Shown here: positions 1,394-25,868 of the stretch, one piece after another
Numbering within the stretch: position 1 is the stretch's first letter
Layout of the letters: each line of letters begins with the position of its first letter
Made by a program: the position numbers and the translations under genes
Assembly (NCBI RefSeq): GCF_026210795.1
Contig: NC_089445.1
Location: 2,666,001 to 2,730,000 of the forward strand
Source: Rhizophagus irregularis
Lineage: Eukaryota > Glomeromycota > Glomeromycetes > Glomerales > Glomeraceae
DNA: 64,000 nucleotides
Direction: 5' to 3'
The notes under the pieces: model-generated
The model's database searches: none
Told to the model about the DNA's origin: nothing
Seen by the model: only the letters and a program-made list of their open reading frames with translations

Positions 1394-3791
1394 TCATAGC
1401 AGTTTACCATTGAACCAATTAAAATAGATGTATTCCAGAGTTTTCGCGTATGGGTGAAGTTCTTCCTGGCGATGGTTAGAGGGAAATACTTTAGTCCACA
1501 AACGAATTGGTGCAAATACTAGATCCATCAAAGCTTGTGATTGTGGACAATCATCATAACATGAACATAAGACATTGTTGGCAATCACGGTGCCAGCACG
1601 TGTAAAGAAACTGATGTATCCGGTGTCTTTTTCCTAATTTTGAAAGGTAAATTGAAATTGAAAACATGAAAGTTGCATCGAAACAAAAAAGACTAATGAA
1701 ACAATCATACAATTATCAAATTATCGACAACAACAGGAATAAGTTCATTTGTTTCGTTCAAAACTAAAATCTTTGTCTCCCCAGGTATTGCATCTTGAGC
1801 ATATAAGACTGATAGATCCTCGCGGAAAATGCAATGTGTAGACGTTGTACGAATTTGGCCTAATCAAAAAATATAGTATTGCCATTAAGTTGTAAAAGAA
1901 ATTTAAAAATTTAATTCACAGTAACGAAATATAGAATACCTTTTCGTCCATCTGAACTTGTGAATTCAATTTTAATCATTGTTAGAAATTGATCATAATG
2001 ACCAAGGTGAGAAATCAAGTAAACTTCAGAAAATTCCAACTCTCCATTTCTGACATTACTGCAAATGCGATCGCCAACTTGAAGTTCTGCCATCTCTACG
2101 AATTTACCACTTTCAAGTTGTACCTTTGTATCAAGAGAAAAACAATCTGTTCTTTTTTTTTTTTTGAGTTCTTCAATTTCTTGTTGACTTAACGCGTTCT
2201 TTTTTTCAAATCTTCAATTTGTTTCGCAAAGTCTAAATTTGCTTTTTTTTCACGATCTTGTAATTCCTTCATTAATCTTGTAGTTTCATTATTTTCTCGA
2301 TTTTTAAGGTTCTTTTCTACTTCCTCAATTCTACTTCTATAGTCTTCTTCAGCTTGTTTTCGCTCTTCTCGTCTAGCTTCCTCATCTCGCTCACGTCTTC
2401 GTTCTTCTTCTTGAATCCTTTGATTTAGCATTGTTTCAGCTCTTTCCTGCTGCTCTTTGTGATCCTGTCGCATCATTTCAAGTGACTTCATATGTCGTTC
2501 TTCGGCTGCTTCTCGCTCTTTTCTTCTTAAATCTTCATCTTGTTCCCGTTGCATTCTATTCTCTGTTTGAATCGACTCAATCGATTTTCTAAACTGTTCA
2601 TCGGCATCTTCTTTTTCTTTTCTCCTTAATTTCTCTTCTTCCTCTTGCTTCGCCCTAAATTCCTTTCTAAGATCTTCAATCTTCTGGTTGTAGGCTTTTT
2701 CAGACTCTTTTTTTGCAGTTTCTTTTAGTTTCTCTTCGTATTCCTGCTTTATCTTTTTTTCCTCCTCTTCTCCTTGACGTCGAATTTCTTCTTGTTCTTT
2801 CCTAGACTTTTCAAGTTGATCAGTAGTATAAACACCTCTCATACCACTAATGAATGCCATGATCTCCCCTAATCGTGCTTTATGAACTGGATCGTCTGGT
2901 GGAAAATAATCAGAGTTCGGAGCGATACCCCAACGATTATCTATGTCCTGAATAAATGAACGAACAGGAGAATTCCAAGCTTGTCGCATAACGTTTCTAT
3001 CCCGAATCTGCGTTTTAGTTGCATGGGAAAATACAGCAATTATGTAATTGATTGCTTCTTCTCCAAGAAATCTCCTTATTCCCTCCAAAACATTTTTCTG
3101 TTCATCAGTAAACCGTCTTGCTTCTGTGAACCAATGATAAAGTTTAATTCGAAATGCAAATTTAAGGTACAAGATATATCTTATAATGCCATTACAAACC
3201 AAAAACAAAGAGGATAGCTTTAACTCCATAAGCACATTTCTTGACGGCATTGGCGATTTCTTTAAGCACATCATCTGTAACTTTTTGAGTGTCGAAGATT
3301 CCGGGTGTATCGACGATGTTATACTTAATACCATCGATTGACATAGCTGCTGTACCACATACTTGCGTGACAGATTCCTATTTCGTTATGTTTTTCTTCC
3401 TGAATTTCAAAATAATAAAATGTATTTCAAAATGAATGTAAACCATATACACCTACCATATCCGCTGAAACGTAGAAAGGTCCTTCATCATGCGGTTGCG
3501 TAAGCAGCAAGTTACCCAGAGTACTTTTTCCCGCACCTATTAGTTAACCATTTAATTAATATGGAAAAGAATAAAGCGCAAAAAAAAGAAAGAATTAATC
3601 AGAACACTTTCCTGTTTTTCCTACTAAGAGAATAACCGGATTGCCAACATCCATTCGAACACCTTCAGTAAATCTGATGTTGCTTTGTTCTTCCCCATTA
3701 TCAAAAGTTCTAAATATTATTAAAAAAATTTAAAAAGAAAGTTTATAATAAAAATAATTATTTTATAATATTTATTACTAAACTGGCTCAT
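1394..3791 (-). CDS. GIN1-like: AIG1-like GTPase / coiled coil / Hedgehog-type Hint fusion, copy A (GIN1-like, probably broken)
   Basis: Seven coding exons can be placed by comparison with the plus-strand paralogue: 3784-3791, 3612-3709, 3457-3536, 3200-3377, 1940-3123, 1711-1859 and 1394-1633. The first exon is only ATGAGCCA. The product begins with a P-loop (GKTGAGKS) and a G3 motif (DTPG) of an AIG1/GIMAP-type GTPase. A long Glu/Arg/Lys/Gln coiled coil follows. It ends with a Hint/Hog domain: catalytic Cys in DCFSLDT (codon 2142-2144), TSTH box, and VLCSCY block. Two lesions are visible. The donor after the P-loop exon reads GA instead of GT (3610-3611). The coiled-coil frame stops at about 2189 while the Hint frame is one base off, which fits a lost base in the A7 run at 2200-2206; exon 5 is 1184 nt where 1185 would keep frame. 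It could be a pseudogene, or assembly error could explain the homopolymer lesion. Family assignment is firm; functionality is doubtful. In metazoan Hedgehog the Hint domain cleaves itself and esterifies cholesterol; that chemistry is only inferred here. Confidence 0.75.
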
Positions 3792-4509
3792 TTTGATAGA
3801 AAATTTTTTTTTTTTTTCCACAATATTCAGACGTAGCCTATTTATAAATCCATCTGATCAAATCTTATATGTATGAATTTTATTTTAAAAAGAGAATAAC
3901 GAAAAAATGATGCAGATCATATCATAATCTCCAATATTGGAATAATAAGAATCAAAAATAAAAATTAAATGTTTTTAGATAAGGAACAAAGTTTAGTGAA
4001 TGATATATTATTGGAAGATTAATCGATAAGGTTTTAAACGTGCTAGGTTGACTTTTATGATTTTTCTTTTCTTTTTTTAAGTTTAAAATGATTTTTAGCT
4101 ATGATTATCGAAAAAGATTTTGTAATCCACTAATCCGATATGGTAAAAATTGGGTTCGATTTTTATTGATAAGGAAACTTTCACTATTGATCCAATCTGT
4201 CTATAGCAGTGATGTGCTCTTGGAATATTGGAAGCACTATTGGAAGCACCTTTGGAAAGATTGGAAAGATTGGAAGCATAATTTTCTAATAAATCCATGC
4301 TTCTAACCAAATTTTTATGTTATTGGAAGTACAAACGTTTGCCATTACTATGCAATGAGTCATATCTGTTTTGTGATCATAATTATACAGATATTTAATA
4401 TTCAACCAATAAATTTCATAAATTTTTTTCATCGTTCTTTAAATAGGTAACATCTTGGATACTCTTTCAATGAGTTTCAAAGAAAAAAAAGTATTTTCTT
4501 GATATCAAT
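3792..4509. promoter_or_regulatory. Spacer between the divergent GIN1-like genes
   Basis: This spacer separates the two start codons of the head-to-head pair and must hold both 5' regions. The half next to copy A (to about 4200) is repeated in the same orientation at about 7400-7690, downstream of copy B, so it travelled with a duplicated gene. A TTGGAAGA/TTGGAAAGA-type short repeat lies at about 4235-4275. Open frames of about 70 codons on both strands at 4088-4310 overlap this low-complexity stretch and are not convincing. No clear TATA box was identified. Confidence 0.4.
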
Positions 4510-6886
4510 ATGAGCCAGTTAAGTATATTTATGAAATAAATCGATAAAAAAATTTTCTTTTAATACTTTTTTTCAACATTTAGAACCATTAACGATGTTT
4601 CCTATCCGGTTATTTTGTTAGTAGGAAAAACAGGTATAATGTTTGGTTAATATTTTTTTTTTCCTCCTTCACTCTTAATTATGAAAATTTTAGGAGCGGG
4701 AAAAAGTACTCTGGGTAACATGCTCCTTAAGCAACCACACGATGATGGGCATTTCCAAGTTTCAGCGGATATGGCAAGTGGTTTATATTTCATATTCATT
4801 TGAAATTTATCTCATTATTTTAAGAAGGTAATTGATAAATTTATAGGAGTCTGTCACGCAAGAATGTTCCACAGCTATAATTTCAATCGATGGTATAACG
4901 TATAATATTATCGATACACCTGGGATTTTTGATACTCAGCTAGTCACGGACAAGATACTTGAAGAAATCGCTAAAACCATTAAGAAATGCAAATATGGGA
5001 TCAAGGCTATCCTTTTTGTTTTTGGTTTGTAATAATTATTGGAATTTATAATTTATACTCGTAATTAATTTGAATGGTTTAATAGAAGCAAAACGGTTTA
5101 GTGCTGAACAAAGAGGTGTTTTGGAAGGAATAAGAAACTTTTTTGGAGAAGGCGCAACGAATTATATAATTGCTATATTTTCTCATGCAACCAAAGCACA
5201 GATTTATGATAGAGATATAATGCGAAAAGCGTGGAATAAACCTGTTTGTTCCTTTATTGAGGATATAGAAAATCGTTGGGGTATCTCTCCAAACTCTGAT
5301 TATTTTCCACCAGATGATCCAACTCATCAGGCACGATTAGGTGAAATAAAGGCATTCATTAGCAGTATGCGGGGAGTTTATACCACTGAACAACTTGAAG
5401 AGTCTCTACAAGAACAAGAGGAAGCTCGTCGTCAAAAAGAAGAAGAGGAAGAAAGAAAAAAACAGGAACACGAAGAGAAATTAAAAGAGATTGCAAGAAA
5501 AGAAGCCGAAGAGGCCCACAAACGTAAGGTTGAGCAAATAGAACGAGAGCGAAAGGCAAAACAAGAGTATGAAGAAAATTTAAAGAGGAAACAACAACAA
5601 GAAGCTGAAGAAAAGCATAGGCAAATGGTTGAGAAAATGAAACAAGAGGAAAGAGAAAGAAAGATACAAGAAGAAAATTTAAGGAAGAAACAACAACAAG
5701 AAGAAGAAGAACGATATAGACGAAAGCTTGAGCAAATGCGACAAGAGAAAGAACGAGAAGAGGAATTGAGAAGACAACGAGAGCGAGAATGGGAATTAAA
5801 AAGACAACGAGAGAAAGAAGAAGAATTAAGAAGACAACGAGCAAGAGAAGAGGAACTAAAAAAACAACGAGAACGGGAAGAGAATTTAAGGAGGGAACGA
5901 GAAAAACAAGAGCAACAAAGACTTCAAGAAATGTATAGAAGGCAACGTGAAGAAGCAGAACGAGAACGTGTGAGAATGATGGAAGAATTACAAAGAGAAC
6001 AGGAGAGACAACGAAGACTCCAAGAGGAGAGGAGACGCGAAGAGGAGAGGAGACATCATCATCATGATGGATGTTTTTCTCTTGATACAAAGGTGCAACT
6101 TTCTAGTGGTAAATTCATAGAAATGGCGAAACTTCAAGTTGGCGATTGCATTTGCAGTAATGTTAAAAATGGGGAGAAGGAATTTTCTGAAGTTTATCTG
6201 ATTTCTCACCTTGGCCATTTTGATCATTCTCTATCAATGACGAAGATTGAATTCACAAGATCAGATGGACAAAAAGGTATTTTATATTCCATTACTTTAA
6301 ATTAAATTTTTTTTTTATTTTTAAATTACAACTTAATGATAATATTACGATTTTTAACAAGGCCAAATTCGCACAACACCATCGCATTGCATTTTCCACG
6401 AGGATCTGTCGATTTTGTATGCTAAAGATGTGGTACCTGGTGTAACAAAAATCTTAGTTTTGAACGAAACAAATGAGCTTGTTCCTGTTGTAGTCGATAA
6501 TTTGATAACTGTATGATTGTTCCACTGATCTCTTATGTTTAATGCGTCTTTTGTGTTCTTAATTTCAGTTTATATTTCAAAATTAGGAAGGAGACACCGG
6601 TTACATCAGTTTCTACACACGTGCTGGCACCGTGATTGCCAATAACGTCTTGTGTTCATGTTATGATGATTGTCCACAATCACAAACTTTGATGGATCTA
6701 GTATTTGCACCAATTCGTTTGTGGACAAAAGTATTTCCCTCTAACCATCGCCAGAAAGACCTTCATCCGTACGTAAAAATTCTGGAGATCGCCTATCATG
6801 ATTGGCGTAATGCATCGAAAATTAGCAATTATCCAATTGTAATTTTATTTATAATAATAATTATTTTGTTTTTTACATTTTTTTAA
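4510..6886 (+). CDS. GIN1-like: AIG1-like GTPase / coiled coil / Hedgehog-type Hint fusion, copy B (GIN1-like, intact)
   Basis: Seven exons (4510-4517, 4584-4633, 4694-4773, 4847-5024, 5086-6276, 6362-6510, 6587-6886) join in frame to 651 residues. The start is supported because the same 8-nt exon, ATGAGCCA, occurs in the divergent paralogue. The P-loop GKTGAGKS is at 17-24 and the G3 DTPG at 69-72. The position usually holding the G4 Asp reads HATKAQ, so guanine specificity may differ. A charged coiled coil runs about 225-430. A Hint/Hog domain starts at Cys435 in DGCFSLDT, preceded by four His. It has TPSH at 508-511 and VLCSCY at 573-578, matching the Hedgehog autoprocessing Cys, TxxH and SCY blocks. 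The last ~20 residues are strongly hydrophobic, like a tail anchor. The intron after 4773 starts with GCAAGT (a GC-AG intron). Self-cleavage at Gly434/Cys435 is an inference. The architecture resembles GmGIN1 as I remember it; the cellular role is unknown. Confidence 0.88.
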
Positions 6887-7282: not shown

Positions 7283-7690
7283 AATCTTCTCCACCATCAA
7301 AAGTTCTAAATATTATTAAAAAAATCAAAAAGAAAGTTTATAAATTATAATATTTCATAAAATTTATTACTCAATTAGCTCATTTTGATAAAAATGAATT
7401 TTTTTTTATATTCAGACGTAACTTATTTTATGAGTATTTTGATCAAATCTTCATATGCATGAATTTTATTTTTCCCACGATAAAGAATTAAGTTTAGTGA
7501 ATTATATATTCTTGGATGATTTCAATGAAGTTTTAAACGTGCTAGTTTGACTTTTATGTGATTTTTCTTTTTTTTTTGTTTATGATTTTTAATTATGAGG
7601 CTATAAAGGATTTTGACATCCGTTAATCCGATATGGTTCAGGTTCTATTTATAGGAAACAATGGTCATAAAGTTAACCACACATGTCAAA
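7283..7690 (-). pseudogene. 5' remnant of a third GIN1-like gene with its upstream region
   Basis: This block is clearly similar to about 3690-4200, which holds the 5' part of copy A. Read on the minus strand it contains ATGAGCTA at 7383 downward, matching the 8-nt first coding exon ATGAGCCA of the other two genes. It then has an intron and the acceptor plus exon start TTTAG/AACTTTTGATGG. Similarity ends about 20 nt into that exon, so the GTPase, coiled coil and Hint parts are missing. The first-exon donor is also lost (CAGTTT became TAATTG). It is a truncated duplicate, not a gene. Confidence 0.65.
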
Positions 7691-13831: not shown

Positions 13832-16312
13832 ATGGATCAATCAATTAACTCAAATAACACACCTTTAAGTCATCCACTAATTGACTTATCGAATTATACT
13901 TACCCACCAATCGATTTATCAAATGACCCATCTTTAAGTTATTCATCAATTGACTTATCAAATTATACATCCTTAAGCTATCCACCAATCGATTTATCAA
14001 ATGACCCATCTTTAAGTTATTCATCAATTGACTTATCAAATTATACATCCTTAAGCTATCCACCAATCGATTTATCAAATGACCCATCTTTAAGTTATTC
14101 ATCGATCGAATCATCAAATTATACATCCTTGAGTTACCCACCAATTGACTTATCAAATGACCCATCTTTAAGTTATTCATCAATTGAATCATCAAATTAT
14201 GCATCTTTGAGTTATCTACCAATTGATTTATCAAATAATACATCTACGAATTATGACTCACCGAATAATATATCCTTGAGTCATTCAACAATTGACACAT
14301 CTCTAAATCATTCACAAATTGACTTATCGAATAACACATCTTTGAGTCGTACCCCAATTAATTTATTAGATAACACATGGGATTTGAGCCCAGTTTGCAA
14401 AAAGGTACAAGTTCAGGAATCAACATCCTTAAGTTATCCAACACGGGGCACGCTTAAACTAAAAGCTAAGAGATGTAAAGGATGCAAGAAAAAAAGAAAA
14501 CTTGTGAATGAAATTCATCAAATTTGTCATCTATGTTATAAAGCAAAAACAGGCAAACTGAGTGGAAATAAAGTTATTGATGATTTTATAAAAAGCACAT
14601 TAAGTAATTGTGACTCAAGAGCGAAATTAGAATTTGTTCCTTATGATAGATTTAAGGATATAGAATTTGTTGCTGAAGGGGGATTCAGTAAAATTTATAA
14701 AGCTACTTGGATTGATGGTCCAATGTCTGATAATAAATGGGATGAAGAAAAGCAAGAATTTGAACGCCTTGGTGAAATGATAGTTGCTCTTAAGGAACTT
14801 AATAATTCTAATAACATTGATCCTAAAGAGTTAAATGAGGTATGGTATCTTTATGCTATTTACAAATACTAAATAATTGACTTAACTAACAAACTTTTTA
14901 TTTTAGCTTAAAATATTTTATAATTTCATCATAAAAGGAACAACCTCTAGTGATAAGCACAGTTATATTAATCGATATTTGGGAATCACCCAAAATCCAA
15001 TTACCCAAAATTTTATAATAATTACAAATTATTATAAATCAGGAAGTCTAAACCATTATATTTCAAATGATTTTTTTAATATTAGCTGGGAAATTAAATT
15101 AAAAAAGTTGCTTTACATGGGTAATGGTCTTAGAGATTTACACAATTCAAATATTATCCATCAAGATTACCACAGTGGAAATATTTTTAGTAAAGAATCA
15201 AAAGGTACATCTGCTGCAATAACGGGTGATTTTGGAATAAGTAAATCTGCAATTGAATCATCAGATGATGAGGTTTATGGAATCATTCCTTATGTTGCTC
15301 CAGAGGTTTTTCAAGGACAAAAATATACTAAAGCTTCAGATATATATAGTTTTGGTATGATTATGTGGGAATTAATGACAGGTAGAAGGCCATTTTGGGA
15401 TAAAAGTCATGATACAGATCTTATTATTGAAATATGTGATGGTCTTCGTCCTCCAATTGTCACAAATGCACCTGAAGGTTATATTGAATTAATGCAAAAT
15501 TGTTGGCATTCCGATCCAAATAAAAGACCAACTGCCGATGATATTTGGATGAAATTTTGTTATGTTACTAGTAAATTGTATTATGGGAAGGAACGTTACA
15601 ATCAAACTAAAATTATAAATTCACCGGATATCGGGCCTATAACAAATAATCCAGGTGCTATATATAAAAGTAGACCTTTAAGTACAATGATAAAATCTGT
15701 AAAACTTACAAAAAGCTTAAAAATCCAAAGTACTATCCAAGAACTTGGTAAGTATTTATTTTATTCGTATTTGTTTGTTCTACCGAATTTACAGATTTAA
15801 GAAGAACAATCATTAACTATTATTAAAATTTTCATTCATTTTTTCTTAAAGGCAAAAGAAAATTTAACAATAATCTGATTGAAAATGATAATGAAGGTAT
15901 TATAAACTCTCTTTCTTTATAACTAATTTTTATCAAAATATCAATTTGATAACTTTGTTAGAACAAACAATTAATTTTATTATTTTTTTTTTGAAAATAA
16001 AATGTTATTTTAGATAATAGTGTTAAAAAATTTAAATTATGTGAAGATAAACGCGATGGTATGTAATATAATATTCTTTATGATTTTTTAACTTTTTATA
16101 ATCCATTTAAGATTTATGGTTTTTTTCTTTTAGATTACTTATCAAAAGAACTTAAATTTGATATTAACGATAATATAAATTCTAATAAACCTAACATTAA
16201 TAATAGTAAGTAAATAATTAGTATTATAAATCATATATTTTGATAAACTAATTATTTTATTTATTATATACATATAGGTTATACTTCTAAGGAACTTAAT
16301 TTTGATATTTAA
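13832..16312 (+). CDS. TKL-type protein kinase with N-terminal 26-residue repeats
   Basis: Six exons (13832-14839, 14907-15747, 15852-15896, 16014-16058, 16134-16205, 16278-16312) join in frame to 681 residues. Residues about 24-135 are a tandem repeat of YPPIDLSNDPSLSYSSIDLS-like units. A small Cys motif follows (CKGC at 215-218, CHLC at 232-235) in a Lys-rich context, possibly metal-binding. The kinase domain starts at about 275: Gly loop EGGFSKIYK, catalytic Lys321 in VALK, IIHQD with Asp423 and Asn428, GDFG at 443-446, and APE at 467-469. HRD is changed to HQD, so the activation-loop phosphate-binding Arg is missing. The C-terminal tail is spread over exons of 45, 45, 72 and 35 nt and ends ELNFDI. 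Catalytic residues are otherwise present, so it is probably active. Expanded TKL kinases of this form are typical of Rhizophagus; the substrate is unknown. The ATG is chosen because the upstream frame lacks a Met and the repeats begin soon after. Confidence 0.85.
13901..14236 (+). repeat. 78-bp coding tandem repeat
   Basis: About four copies of a 78-bp unit lie in frame within the first exon of the kinase and encode 26 residues each. The first copies are nearly identical at DNA level; the last ones diverge (DLS to ESS, PPI to LPI). Such repeats expand and contract easily, so length variation among strains is expected. Confidence 0.85.
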
Positions 16313-17672: not shown

Positions 17673-19529
17673 ATGTCTAAACTGAAAGTTAAGAAATGTA
17701 ATGAATGCAAGAAAAAAAGAAATTTCATGAATGAAATTCATCGGATTTGTCACCAATGTTACAAAGCAAAATCAGCTGTATTAAGTGGAAATAAAGTTAT
17801 TGATGATTTTATAAAGAGCACATTAGTAATCACGATTATAATTATAGAAAAGCGAAATTAGAATTTGTCCCTTATGGTAGATTCAAGGATATAGAATTTA
17901 TTGCTGAAGGAGGATTTAGTAAGATTTATAAAGCTACTTGGATTGATGGTCCAATATCTAATAAATGGAATGAAGAAAAACAGGAATTTGATCGTTGTGG
18001 TAGAATGATAGTAGTACTCAAGGAGCTTAATAATTCTAATAATATTGATTCTAAGGAATTAAATGAGGTATTGCATCTTTTGACCACAAATATTAATATA
18101 CAGTACAATGAATTAACTAACTAACAACTTTTATTTTAGCTTAAAATATTTTATAATTTCATCTTAAAAAATATGACCACTAATGATGATTACAATTTTA
18201 TTAATAAATATTTTGGAATTACTCAAAATTCCGTTAACCAAAATTTTATGATAATTACAAATTATTATGAATCAGGAGATTTAACACATTTTATTACAAA
18301 GAACTTTTTTAATATTAGTTGGAAAATTAAATTAAAGAAATTGTTTGACATGATCGGGGGTCTTAAAGATTTACACAATTCAAATATTATTCATCAAGAT
18401 TACCACAGCGGAAATATTTTTAGTAAAGAAACAAAAGGTAAGTATAAGACATCTGCAATAACGGGTGATTTTGGGATAAGTAAATCTGCAATTGAGTCAT
18501 CAGATGATGATAATGAAGTTTATGGAATCATTCCTTACGTTGCTCCAGAGATTTTTCAAGGACAAAAATATACTAAAGCTTCAGATATATATAGTTATGG
18601 TATGATTATGTGGGAATTGATGACAGGTAGAAGACCATTTTGGGATAAAAGTCATGATACAAATCTTATTATTGAAATATGTGATGGTTTACGACCACCA
18701 ATTGTTACAAATGCACCTGAAGGTTATATCGAATTAATGCAAGAATGTTGGCACTCTGATCCAAATAAAAGACCAAATGCTCACGAGATTTGTGATATAT
18801 TTACTCGTTATGGTAGTAAATTGTATTATCAGAATGAAAGTTATAATCAAACTAAAATTATAAATTCACCGGATATTGGACCCATAACAACAAATAATCC
18901 AGGAGACATTTATAAAAGTCGACCTTTAAGTACAATGATAAAATCTGTAAAATTTACCAAAAGCTTAAAAAGCCAAAGTATTATTCCAGAATTTGGTAAG
19001 AAATTTGTTTTATTCATACAGTATCTATTTTTTGATTAGCCCGTATTTGCAAAAATTATTATAATTTTGTATATCTATTGTTTTTTTAAAAAATAGGCAA
19101 AAGGAAATTTAACAATAATCTGATTGAAAATAATAATGAAGGTACTAATTTTTCAAAAGTTAAGTTGAAAAGTTTGTTAAAACAATTATAATTTCAACGT
19201 TATTTAGATAATGTTAAAAAATCTAAATTATATGAAAATAAAAATGATGGTACGCCGGGTACGTCTAAAAAACATCCAGAAAATGTTCATATATATTCTT
19301 TATGATATTAATATTTACATTTTTTTTTCTCCTAGATTCCTTAACAAAAGAACTCATATTTGATATTAAATTTGATATTAATGATATCATAAATTCCGAT
19401 AAATCAAACAATAATAGTAGTAAGTGATATTATTAATAACAATATTTCTGTTAAATTGATAAATCCAAACTAATTAATTCCGTTTATTATATAGATTACA
19501 CTACCGAGGAACTTAATTTTGATATTTAA
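17673..19529 (+). CDS. TKL-type protein kinase, paralogue with one-base frameshift
   Basis: Exons are 17673-18067, 18140-18995, 19097-19141, 19208-19249, 19336-19419 and 19495-19529. They match the upstream kinase exon for exon except that the repeat-rich N-terminus is absent; the protein starts just before the Cys motif (CNEC, CHQC). In the first exon TTAAGTAAT of the paralogue is TTAGTAAT here (about 17825), shifting the frame and giving a stop shortly after. The first exon is 395 nt where 396 would keep frame. Downstream, the kinase frame is open and well preserved: EGGFSKIYK, VVLK, IIHQD...N, GDFG, APE, and tail ending ELNFDI. Preservation after the lesion suggests a recent inactivation or a sequencing error. 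Without correction only about 60 residues would be made. HQD replaces HRD as in the paralogue. Confidence 0.75.
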
Positions 19530-23408: not shown

Positions 23409-25868
23409 ATGTCATCAGAAAAAACTACAACACCAGATACAACTTCGACGGATTCAAACACTGTGGAGGAAATAAAAAACGTCAATGATAATAAAGTTGA
23501 GACAAACAATGATTTAGAAGCCCAAACAACAGTTGGTGGCGATAATAATGCAACGCCAAGAAATGGACAACCCCTAGTACAATTAGGGAGGCTCCAATTA
23601 TTTCTAGTGATGTTTGGGTATGTGATAACCTAATCAAATTAATGTTTATCCCGAAATTATCAGCAATTAACGATAAAATTTTTTTTTTTTAAAAAAAAAA
23701 GGTTGGCATTTGGTGTTTTGTTAGCTGCATTGGATCAAACTATCGTTGCGACGGCATTACCAGCGATTGCTTCAGACTTTAAAGCATTGGATAAAATTGC
23801 ATGGGTTGCCACTGCTTATTTACTGACAATGGTAAATTTTTGTCACGTGCTCATTCTTTACTGCGCTTTCTCTTTACACACATGTATTTAAAAAAATCTC
23901 TTTTACATGTTCTTAGACGGCTTTCCAACCAACTTATGGAAAATTTTCCGATATTTTCGGCAGAAAAGCAACGTTCTTATTTGCAGTTATAACGTTCGAA
24001 ATAGGAAGTTTACTATGCGGTTTAGCTCCAAATATGGTACTTACTTGACTAATAAAAATTTTTGTCTTATTGGTAATTTGTTTTTTTTAATTCTAATTTT
24101 CGTAATTTTCGTGATTTTTAGACCACAATGATTATTTTCCGTGCCATAGCCGGTGTAGGAGGTGGTGGTATTCTCAGTTTGGTTATGATTATAATATCAG
24201 ATATCGTTTCGCTTCAAGATCGTGGAAAATATCAAGGAATGATTGGTGGTGTTTATGGTGTCTCTTCCGTGATAGGTCCATTGCTCGGTGGAGCTTTTAC
24301 AGGTAAATAAATTCAAAATGCAAATAAAAAAAAAAAGGCCAATTTCAAATAAAGATACTAATCAATTATAATTTTTTTCATTTTTAAACTTAATTTAGAT
24401 CACGTAACTTGGAGGTAAATATATTGATAACAATTTATCAACTCTTCAATCATGTAACTGTTATTAATCCTTTTTTTTTTTTTTTTATATTTATTAGATG
24501 GTCATTTTATATTAACCTTCCGTTGGGAGCAATAACAGTTATTGTAGCAATATTCTTACTCCGTATACCACGTCCAAAAGGTTCATTATTGCAAAAACTT
24601 AAACGAATAGATTATATCGGAACAATAGTTGTAGTTGGATCTACTATAGCACTTTTATTACCATTGAATTGGGGAGGAAATGAATACCCGTGGAGTTCTC
24701 CCGTAATTATCGTATTATTAGTTGTTGGATTCGTTGGATATATAATATTTGGTCTCGTTGAAACCAAATTAGCAATCGAACCCGTTGCTCCTCGTAAGTT
24801 CGTTTGCTATTTAATCGAGAAAATTTGTACATCAGTAAAACTAATATAATATATTTTATTATTATAGCACATTTGTTTAAACGATTGCATGTCGTTGGAT
24901 GCTTTACTACAAATTTCTTTCAAGGAATGGCATTCTTTTCGTTGGTTTATTACGTTCCACTTTATTTCCAAGTCGTAAAAGGTGATTCTGGTAAGTATCT
25001 TTCTTTTTGAGAAAACCTCTTACTAAATATAATCTTTATAAACTTACGCCATCAATTTTGTTTTTCTTTCCTTAGCCACCACATCAGGTTTAGAGTTAAT
25101 TCCATTAATTCTTGGTGTAGTAATTGCCTCAGTATCTTCAGGACAAGCCGTATCACGAACCGACAAATTCGCTTATCGTACATTAAGTATGACAGGAGCA
25201 GCATTGATCGCAATTGGATCAGGATTGATAACTTTATGGGACGAAAATAGTGGAAGAGCACCTCAAATTTGTTATATGATTATTGCCGGCTTAGGAATAG
25301 GGCGTAAGTTATTTTTACATATAGCTGTTGGGGGGAAATATTTTTTTGAAAACTTTTTATTGACATTATTATGACTCTTTATTTTTTAAAGTTATAATGC
25401 AGACCACATTGCTTTGCGGACAAGGAATTGTCGAATATAAAGATGTTGCATCTGTTACTGCTCTTTTAATGTTCTTTAGATTAAGTAAGTACCAAAATTA
25501 ATTTTTTTTAAAAAAAAATGATGAAATTCAATAATATTAATAATTTATTTTTTTCATTAATTATTATAGTTGGTGCCGTATTTGGTGTTGCAATAGTTGG
25601 CACAATATTCTCAAATGTTCTTACTAATAATATTGAGAATATTGCAATTCCACCTGAACTCGCTGGCGCGGTAAAAGCTTCCGCTACTGTAGTTAATCAA
25701 TTACCAATAGAAATAAGGGGTCCAGTTATTTCCGCTTATGTTGGTGCTTTAAGAACTGCTTTCACAGCAGATATACCAATAGGTATATTATGTTTCCTTG
25801 CTTCACTCTTTATGGGAAATCATAAACCTAGTTTAAGAACTACTGATACAGTAGTCGCTTTTGAGTAA
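23409..25868 (+). CDS. MFS transporter, DHA2 (14-TM drug:H+ antiporter) type
   Basis: Ten exons (23409-23617, 23702-23831, 23917-24036, 24122-24302, 24399-24414, 24498-24793, 24868-24990, 25076-25303, 25392-25484, 25570-25868) join in frame to 564 residues, the usual size for this family. A hydrophilic Asp/Thr/Asn-rich N-tail of about 60 residues precedes the first membrane segment. LDQTIVATALPAIASDF is the DHA2 signature of TM1. GKFSDIFGRK at about 121-130 is motif A. GVSSVIGPLLGG at 199-210 is antiporter motif C. WRWSFYINLP follows. Exon 5 is a 16-nt microexon encoding DHVTW plus part of Arg. The transporter probably sits in the plasma or vacuolar membrane and exports small molecules against protons; the substrate is not predictable. 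No frameshift was found and all ten junctions keep phase. Confidence 0.9.

Follow-up and report, generated by a model that had tools for sequence, protein, structure and literature searches.

Two neighbouring genes of the fungus Rhizophagus irregularis, here called A and B, lie head to head near the start of a 64,000-nucleotide stretch of DNA (the window; C17:2666001-2730000, on contig NC_089445.1), and an original prediction made from the sequence had both of them joining a GIMAP-like (AIG1) GTPase to a Hedgehog-type Hint domain. Such a fusion raises the question of whether the GTPase could be released from, or lipidated by, its own C terminus. The answer put forward here, to which we give about an even chance, is that gene B is a member of the GmGIN1-type family of Glomeromycotina, GIMAP-like GTPase precursors that would cut themselves ahead of the first Hint residue (Cys1) and be passed to a hydroxyl acceptor.

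Gene B Encodes an AIG1-Hog Fusion

The genome (146.7 Mb, 32 contigs) was searched for AIG1 and Hint, 18 stretches were chosen from the matches, and the loci on C17, C6, C2, and C24 were modelled with a purpose-made spliced aligner; all gene models are alignment-based. There were 37 Hint matches, 33 of which fall in modelled genes or remnants. The remaining four are without a model: C7:1917105 (31.1 bits; no model with a score of at least 150), C6:3668303, C10:2946776, and C17:3893279 (E 0.19-0.50).

Gene B (4510-6886, forward strand) comprises an AIG1 GTPase, a charged helical linker, and a Hog domain (Hint plus adduct recognition region) in 651 residues and seven exons (4510-4517, 4584-4633, 4694-4773, 4847-5024, 5086-6276, 6362-6510, and 6587-6886). 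The spliced model opens with the ATG at 4510, closes with a stop codon ending at 6886, and has neither an internal stop nor a frameshift. With introns included, the GTPase part occupies 4510-5432, followed by the linker (5433-6071, with an approximate start) and by the Hog domain (6072-6886, in three exons), which contains Cys1, a His at the column of Hedgehog Asp303, TPSH, SCY, FAPIR, and HPY. The Gly and Cys codons at 6069-6074 mark the predicted cleavage site.

A profile search, which had been proposed together with the original prediction, gave matches far beyond chance: Pfam AIG1 at residues 13-221 (1.1e-33; 116.8 bits against a curated cut-off of 27) and Pfam Hint at residues 430-618 (4.4e-17). 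Gene B is the predicted fusion of an AIG1 GTPase with a Hog-type Hint domain, and every motif named for it (GKTGAGKS, DTPG, the CF start, TxxH, and VLCSCY) was found. The combination that characterises GmGIN1, AIG1 and Hog in one protein, was identified by Pfam on the spliced models of gene B, its relative A', and two genes on C6 (C6p1 and C6m1); the joining of AIG1 and Hint exons in one transcript is predicted from these models. GC-AG introns recur in the family, being present as intron 3 of gene B (4774-4846), intron 3 of its paralogue B', and intron 2 of A' (C17:2662320-2662394).

Catalytic Residues of the Hint Domain

The Hint domains are related to that of Hedgehog. A profile built from seven of them found Drosophila Hedgehog (6td6) at 2.3e-21 and inteins at merely 0.53 and 0.58, and the NCBIfam intein_Nterm match reached only 0.083 (13.9 bits, below the cut-off of 24.5). 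Scans with the Hint profile of the GTDB genome contigs (216 pattern matches, none confirmed) and of IMG/VR (85 pattern matches, none confirmed) did not point to any relative in bacteria or viruses.

Residues were compared in 16 Hint-bearing rows, with Drosophila Hedgehog as the numbering reference. Within these rows the A, C2c, and C2f models are frameshifted, C2a is gapped over SCY, and the C2e model fuses two adjoining genes; two degenerate Hint remnants on C6 were omitted. The catalytic set of Cys1, Thr326, and His329 (the latter two in TxxH) is kept in all 16 rows, and the Hog-specific Cys400 (motif J) in 15, the exception being C2a with its model gap. This conservation makes self-cleavage plausible, and transfer to a sterol or other lipid is plausible with it. 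The column of Asp303 reads His in 16/16 rows, the same result being obtained under three MAFFT modes, and both omitted remnants keep this His as well. In keeping with this, the seven-domain profile scored Hedgehog with His at 303 (6tyy, 74.9 bits) above the wild type (1at0, 70.1 bits), with the column ungapped in both, and when gene B alone was the query, alignments to wild-type Hedgehog gapped the Asp303 column, whereas the alignment to 6tyy did not.

In Hedgehog, cholesterol is activated by Asp303 acting as general base. The fungal family departs from the animal cholesterol transferase at this position in every row, yet the engineered D303H enzyme, whose residue is the natural His of the fungal proteins, is reported to be active. 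As the work of Zhao et al. 2019 is told in review, D303H Hedgehog keeps its structure, pKa, and catalytic efficiency, and its sterol use is widened, more than 200-fold for coprostanol (PMC9163320); a second review gives the same account briefly (PMC8529194). The passages of PMC8529194, PMC9599816, PMC9163320, and PMC7906309 within reach of the search, which took in few subscription papers, do not discuss natural Hogs with His. The idea that this His is unique to the family was considered and dropped. The Pfam Hint profile scores the wild-type Hedgehog Hint and its His form alike (180 and 180.1 bits), from which it appears that other natural Hogs probably carry His at this column.

The fungal family therefore has in common with the Drosophila Hedgehog Hog (1at0, 6td6) the profile homology, Cys1, TxxH, and SCY. 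The cargo differs, being the Hedge domain in Drosophila and a GTPase in gene B, and the motifs of the recognition region are partly kept in the fungal proteins. The Hint domains are held under purifying selection: the ratio of nonsynonymous to synonymous divergence (dN/dS, Nei-Gojobori) lies between 0.12 and 0.31 in nine of ten pairs, the tenth being saturated.

Proposed Reaction and the Acceptor Site

The conserved residues suggest the following course. After folding, the Hint cysteine would attack the preceding peptide bond to give a thioester. Within the C-terminal recognition region a molecule with a hydroxyl group would be bound, and, once activated by the His that occupies the Asp303 position, it would resolve the thioester. 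The product would be the GTPase with its helical linker, carrying a C-terminal adduct that we infer to be most likely a fungal sterol.

In SHH, the HPR motif of the first recognition helix is described as conserved, and the hinge reads HWY (PMC7906309). Among the 16 fungal rows, the column of the HPR His reads Asp in ten, Asn in five, and His in one, that of the Pro reads Pro in 13 and Ser in three, and that of the Arg reads Arg in 13 and Lys in three. The hinge reads HPY in 14 rows, RPY in one, and YPY in one, so that its Trp is replaced by Pro throughout (Trp 0/16, Pro 16/16) and its Tyr is invariant (16/16). The residue ahead of Cys1 is Gly in half of the rows, and Asp, Glu, Gln, Ser, Asn, Ala, or Thr in the others. 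On this evidence the core chemistry is likely kept, and the acceptor may differ from cholesterol; given the His general base, the near absence of the HPR His, and the HPY hinge, cholesterol transfer by these Hogs is uncertain. The sterols of R. irregularis are reported to be mainly 24-methyl- and 24-ethylcholesterol (PMC7151148, citing others).

The same columns bear on an unlikely alternative, that the Hint domain hydrolyses itself off without ligation, as a release switch for the GTPase and the Hog fragment that leaves no lipid adduct. The single HPR His, the change from HWY to HPY in 14 rows, and the variable residue ahead of Cys1 would all suit such a switch, and several D303 mutations are reported to make cleavage driven by dithiothreitol more efficient (PMC9163320). 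Plain hydrolysis, however, would have no need of the His that is invariant at the general-base column, nor of SCY, the Pro (13/16), the Arg or Lys (16/16), and the hinge Tyr (16/16) that are retained. A further possibility, that cleavage has been lost and the Hint domain remains on an uncut GTPase as a folded module for binding or regulation, appears very doubtful. The variable residue ahead of Cys1 and the visible decay of some copies (A, C2c, C2f, and the two C6 remnants) speak in its favour, but the invariance of Cys1, Thr, and His in all rows and the low dN/dS of the Hint part in the nine pairs speak against it.

GTPase Domain, Linker, and C-terminal Tail

The solved structures closest to the GTPase domain of gene B are those of mammalian GIMAP5, 4, 7, 1, and 2 (6.2e-16 to 4.1e-11; 6z3e at 6.2e-16 and 3lxx at 9.5e-16). 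GTP binding and hydrolysis by gene B are predicted from its P-loop, GKTGAGKS, and from DTPG. Residues 139-142 (5184-5195) read HATK where GIMAP5 has HKED, which we take to be the guanine-specificity motif; its acidic residue is missing in gene B, and the nucleotide preference may differ from that of GIMAP5. To our knowledge, mammalian GIMAPs carry no Hint domain.

The linker had been described as a long coiled coil. Its composition (E/D 0.32, K/R 0.34) and strong i,i+4 salt-bridge periodicity (z 5.5) agree with a charged helical linker, but the heptad signal of gene B is low (z 1.3), so a charged single helix fits equally well and the coiled coil is unproven. The corresponding values for A' are 5.7 and 2.9, and the linkers of the C6 genes are 28-64 residues long by the measure applied to gene B. 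A hydrophobic C-terminal tail in gene B was considered as a conserved membrane anchor and dropped, as B alone among 13 natural tails has it; similar tails in some models are spurious extra exons that the aligner took from AT-rich flanks.

Gene A Is Broken as Assembled

Gene A (1394-3791, reverse strand; ATG at 3791, TGA at 1396-1394) has the same architecture as gene B. The original prediction of two intact fusions holds for gene B and fails for gene A, which is interrupted in the assembly. Its Hog domain (1394-2144, reverse strand) taken alone still matches Pfam Hint at 2e-20, but lies in a different frame (open reading frame 1911-2213) from the linker (open reading frame 2189-3385). The shift corresponds to a one-base gap relative to A', near the end of the linker and ∼60 bases ahead of the Hint Cys. 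Moreover, intron 2 of gene A starts with GA, where its counterpart is a GC-AG intron in A' and a GT-AG intron in B. The residue ahead of Cys1 is Asp in gene A and Gly in both A' and B. The relative A' (ATG at C17:2662572, running down to ∼2660170) belongs to another head-to-head pair, which lies just beyond the window; its model has no stop or frameshift and matches AIG1 at 1.5e-31 and Hint at 3.1e-21.

Gene A is either a young pseudogene, or else the assembly holds two errors. That the breaks are assembly errors and gene A is intact and working seems somewhat unlikely. Each defect involves a single base, the gap adjoins a run of A, and the Hint part of gene A still shows a dN/dS of 0.23 against A' and also against B. 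Against this stand the presence of two independent defects within one gene and the change from GC to GA in intron 2, which is not a homopolymer error. Gene A would then be a copy of the A' type that was damaged recently.

GTPase and Hint Modules Have Different Histories

The C17 cluster consists of five genes: g1, A', B', A, and B. Two of these, g1 and B', have a GTPase and linker of the B type, end in RRHDDDCRIL and RRNECRIF, respectively, share a common 3' flank, and gave no Hint match in the genome-wide Hint profile search. When gene B was compared with g1 in 100-base windows, the likeness was 0.93-0.99 at 4900-5999, fell to 0.84 at 6000, and was 0.36-0.48 at 6100-6699. The comparison with A and A' gave a different course, with 0.68-0.86 at 4500-5499, 0.41-0.49 at 5800-5999, and 0.79-0.95 at 6100-6799. 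The g1-like part of gene B stops ∼15 bases upstream of the Gly codon, beside a CAT/GAT run, and the sequence downstream is A-like. Introns follow the same division: in the GTPase part the likeness of B is 0.57-0.65 to A and 0.58-0.65 to A', and in the Hint part it is 0.76-0.79 and 0.73-0.76, respectively. In the trees, the GTPase domains separate into two clades, A and B/B'/g1, whereas the Hint domains of A, A', and B form a trio without resolved branching.

Synonymous divergence (dS) between A and A' is 0.046 in the GTPase part (bootstrap 0.01-0.09) and 0.312 in the Hint part (0.20-0.46). For gene B, dS of the Hint part is 0.35 to A and 0.43 to A', and that of the GTPase part is 0.67 and 0.62, with overlapping bootstrap ranges; taken alone, synonymous divergence is not conclusive for a transfer of the Hint part from an A-type gene to B. 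The case for transfer is made by the paralogues that lack Hint, by the sharp switch between the 100-base windows, and by the introns. The simplest reading of these sequences is that gene B gained its Hint domain from an A-type gene through recombination at the module border. An alternative would be that the Hint domain was lost in the ancestor of B' and g1 and that the 5' part of gene B was later converted.

Head-to-head Pairs in Two Clusters

Gene A runs from 3791 to 1394 and gene B from 4510 to 6886, with coordinates and orientation as originally described and 718 bases between the start codons; the intervening stretch (3792-4509) is a putative shared promoter region. The paired arrangement recurs: head-to-head order was found in five pairs in two clusters, on C17 and C6. 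The second C17 pair, A'/B', has 1349 bases between its ATGs, and the three C6 pairs have 418, 248, and 1043 bases between first modelled residues. None of the six members of the C6 pairs has a stop or frameshift as far as the HPY motif. No head-to-head partner was seen for g1 or for the C2 and C24 genes within the 5-10-kb stretches inspected.

In both the GTPase and the Hint tree, the three minus-strand genes of C6 form one clade and the three plus-strand genes another, and these two clades neighbour each other (support 93/89 for GTPase and 99/96 for Hint). The A and B clades neighbour each other in the GTPase tree as well, with weak support (84/78). Since the C6 clades are mutual neighbours in both trees, inverted duplication probably produced the pairs independently in each cluster, and they were later copied as units.

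These relationships would also fit the view that a pair merely reflects inverted tandem duplication and decay, in which case A is a pseudogene and the head-to-head order has no role, a view that falls just short of an even chance. The tree neighbours are those expected of separate local inverted duplications, gene A is broken as assembled, and g1 lacks a head-to-head partner in the stretch inspected. It is opposed by the occurrence of five such pairs in two clusters and by the uninterrupted state of all six C6 members up to HPY. No published description of head-to-head pairing turned up, and no literature search was aimed at gene pairing.

Degenerate AIG1/Hint remnants are present between the C6 pairs, at C6:526.9-527.7 kb and 537.2-538.2 kb, the first of which blends features of both C6 clades. 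On C2 (C2:5883001-5892000, L050), two adjoining AIG1 genes, the second with Hint, were merged by the aligner into one 13-exon model.

Other Features of the Window

Downstream of gene B lies a decayed partial copy of the 5' end of gene A and its upstream region (7285-7637), detected by self-BLAST, with 82% likeness between 7285-7472 and 3689-3886 and 80% between 7479-7637 and 3978-4144; it points to a further, lost copy. Farther along, two protein-kinase-like open reading frames (14907-15800 and 18140-19039) are close mutual repeats, and a third open reading frame (24394-24849) has transporter-like hydrophobic segments, the translations of all three having been judged by eye.

Discussion

In GmGIN1 of Glomus mosseae, likewise an arbuscular mycorrhizal fungus, a GTPase of the AIG1/IAN type precedes a bona fide Hog domain, in which motifs J and K and an L-like region are present (PMC2362128). 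The likeness of gene B to this architecture, noted at the outset, stands, the two having been compared by description. Proteins with AIG1 and Hint (MEROPS C46), the two Pfam domains found in gene B, are reported as expanded in Glomeromycotina and only there among the fungi analysed (PMC8778642). Animals have comparable proteins, AIG1-Hint in corals and CARD-AIG1-Hint in lancelets, which by description share with gene B an AIG1 domain and a C-terminal Hint (PMC3723955, PMC12373286); the combination of CARD, AIG1, and HINT is reported outside lancelets in just a few multicellular fungi (PMC12373286). As a signalling design outside animals the fusion is therefore not new, as AIG1 with Hint was already published for Glomus mosseae and other Glomeromycotina, and occurs in corals and lancelets too. 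The fusion type is known; the present analysis adds the residue pattern, the exchange of modules, the paralogues lacking Hint, and the head-to-head pairs. The GmGIN1 passages of PMC2362128 mention none of the last three, and the relevant passages of PMC8778642 contain no analysis of catalytic residues, gene order, or Hint loss. As to expression, three transcripts of R. irregularis that resemble AIG1 and hedgehog are reported to share one co-expression module (PMC6956056), and an Aig1 gene, its Hint status not stated, is reported up in coinoculation in three host genotypes (PMC7490403).

If the cut takes place as proposed, the C-terminal adduct would anchor the GTPase to a membrane, and the Hint-less paralogues B' and g1 could act as soluble partners supplied by neighbouring genes. 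Several animal GIMAPs use hydrophobic C termini at membranes.

A number of points weigh against this reading. The membrane-anchor and partner roles are proposed by analogy only, and both partners carry Hint in all three C6 pairs. A residue other than Gly ahead of Cys1 may slow or change the reaction, and with the HPR His kept in a single row a different molecule, or water, may serve as acceptor. To judge from the Pfam Hint profile, a His in the Asp303 column does not set the family apart. Finally, Hedgehog acts in the secretory pathway. GmGIN1, in contrast, is described as having no signal peptide (PMC2362128), and for this reason access to a sterol in the cytosol is unproven.

A more far-reaching version, which we regard as speculative and distinctly improbable as a whole, would be a cytosolic lipidation of the Hedgehog type, in which a natural His base places the fungus's own C24-alkylated sterols or a related hydroxyl lipid on the C terminus of GIMAP-like GTPases. 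Divergent pairs would then supply one partner that is anchored and another that is soluble or anchored in a different way. The Hog module would pass between neighbouring genes by recombination at its own cleavage junction, making soluble GTPases lipid-anchored.

Should the domains prove active, Hedgehog-style ligation of lipid to protein would exist outside animals, with GTPases as its substrates instead of morphogens, in fungi whose main sterols are reported to be 24-alkylated cholesterols. The natural His at the general-base position would offer a ready test of the engineered D303H chemistry, and the side-by-side paralogues with and without the Hog module would permit a direct comparison of anchored and free forms.

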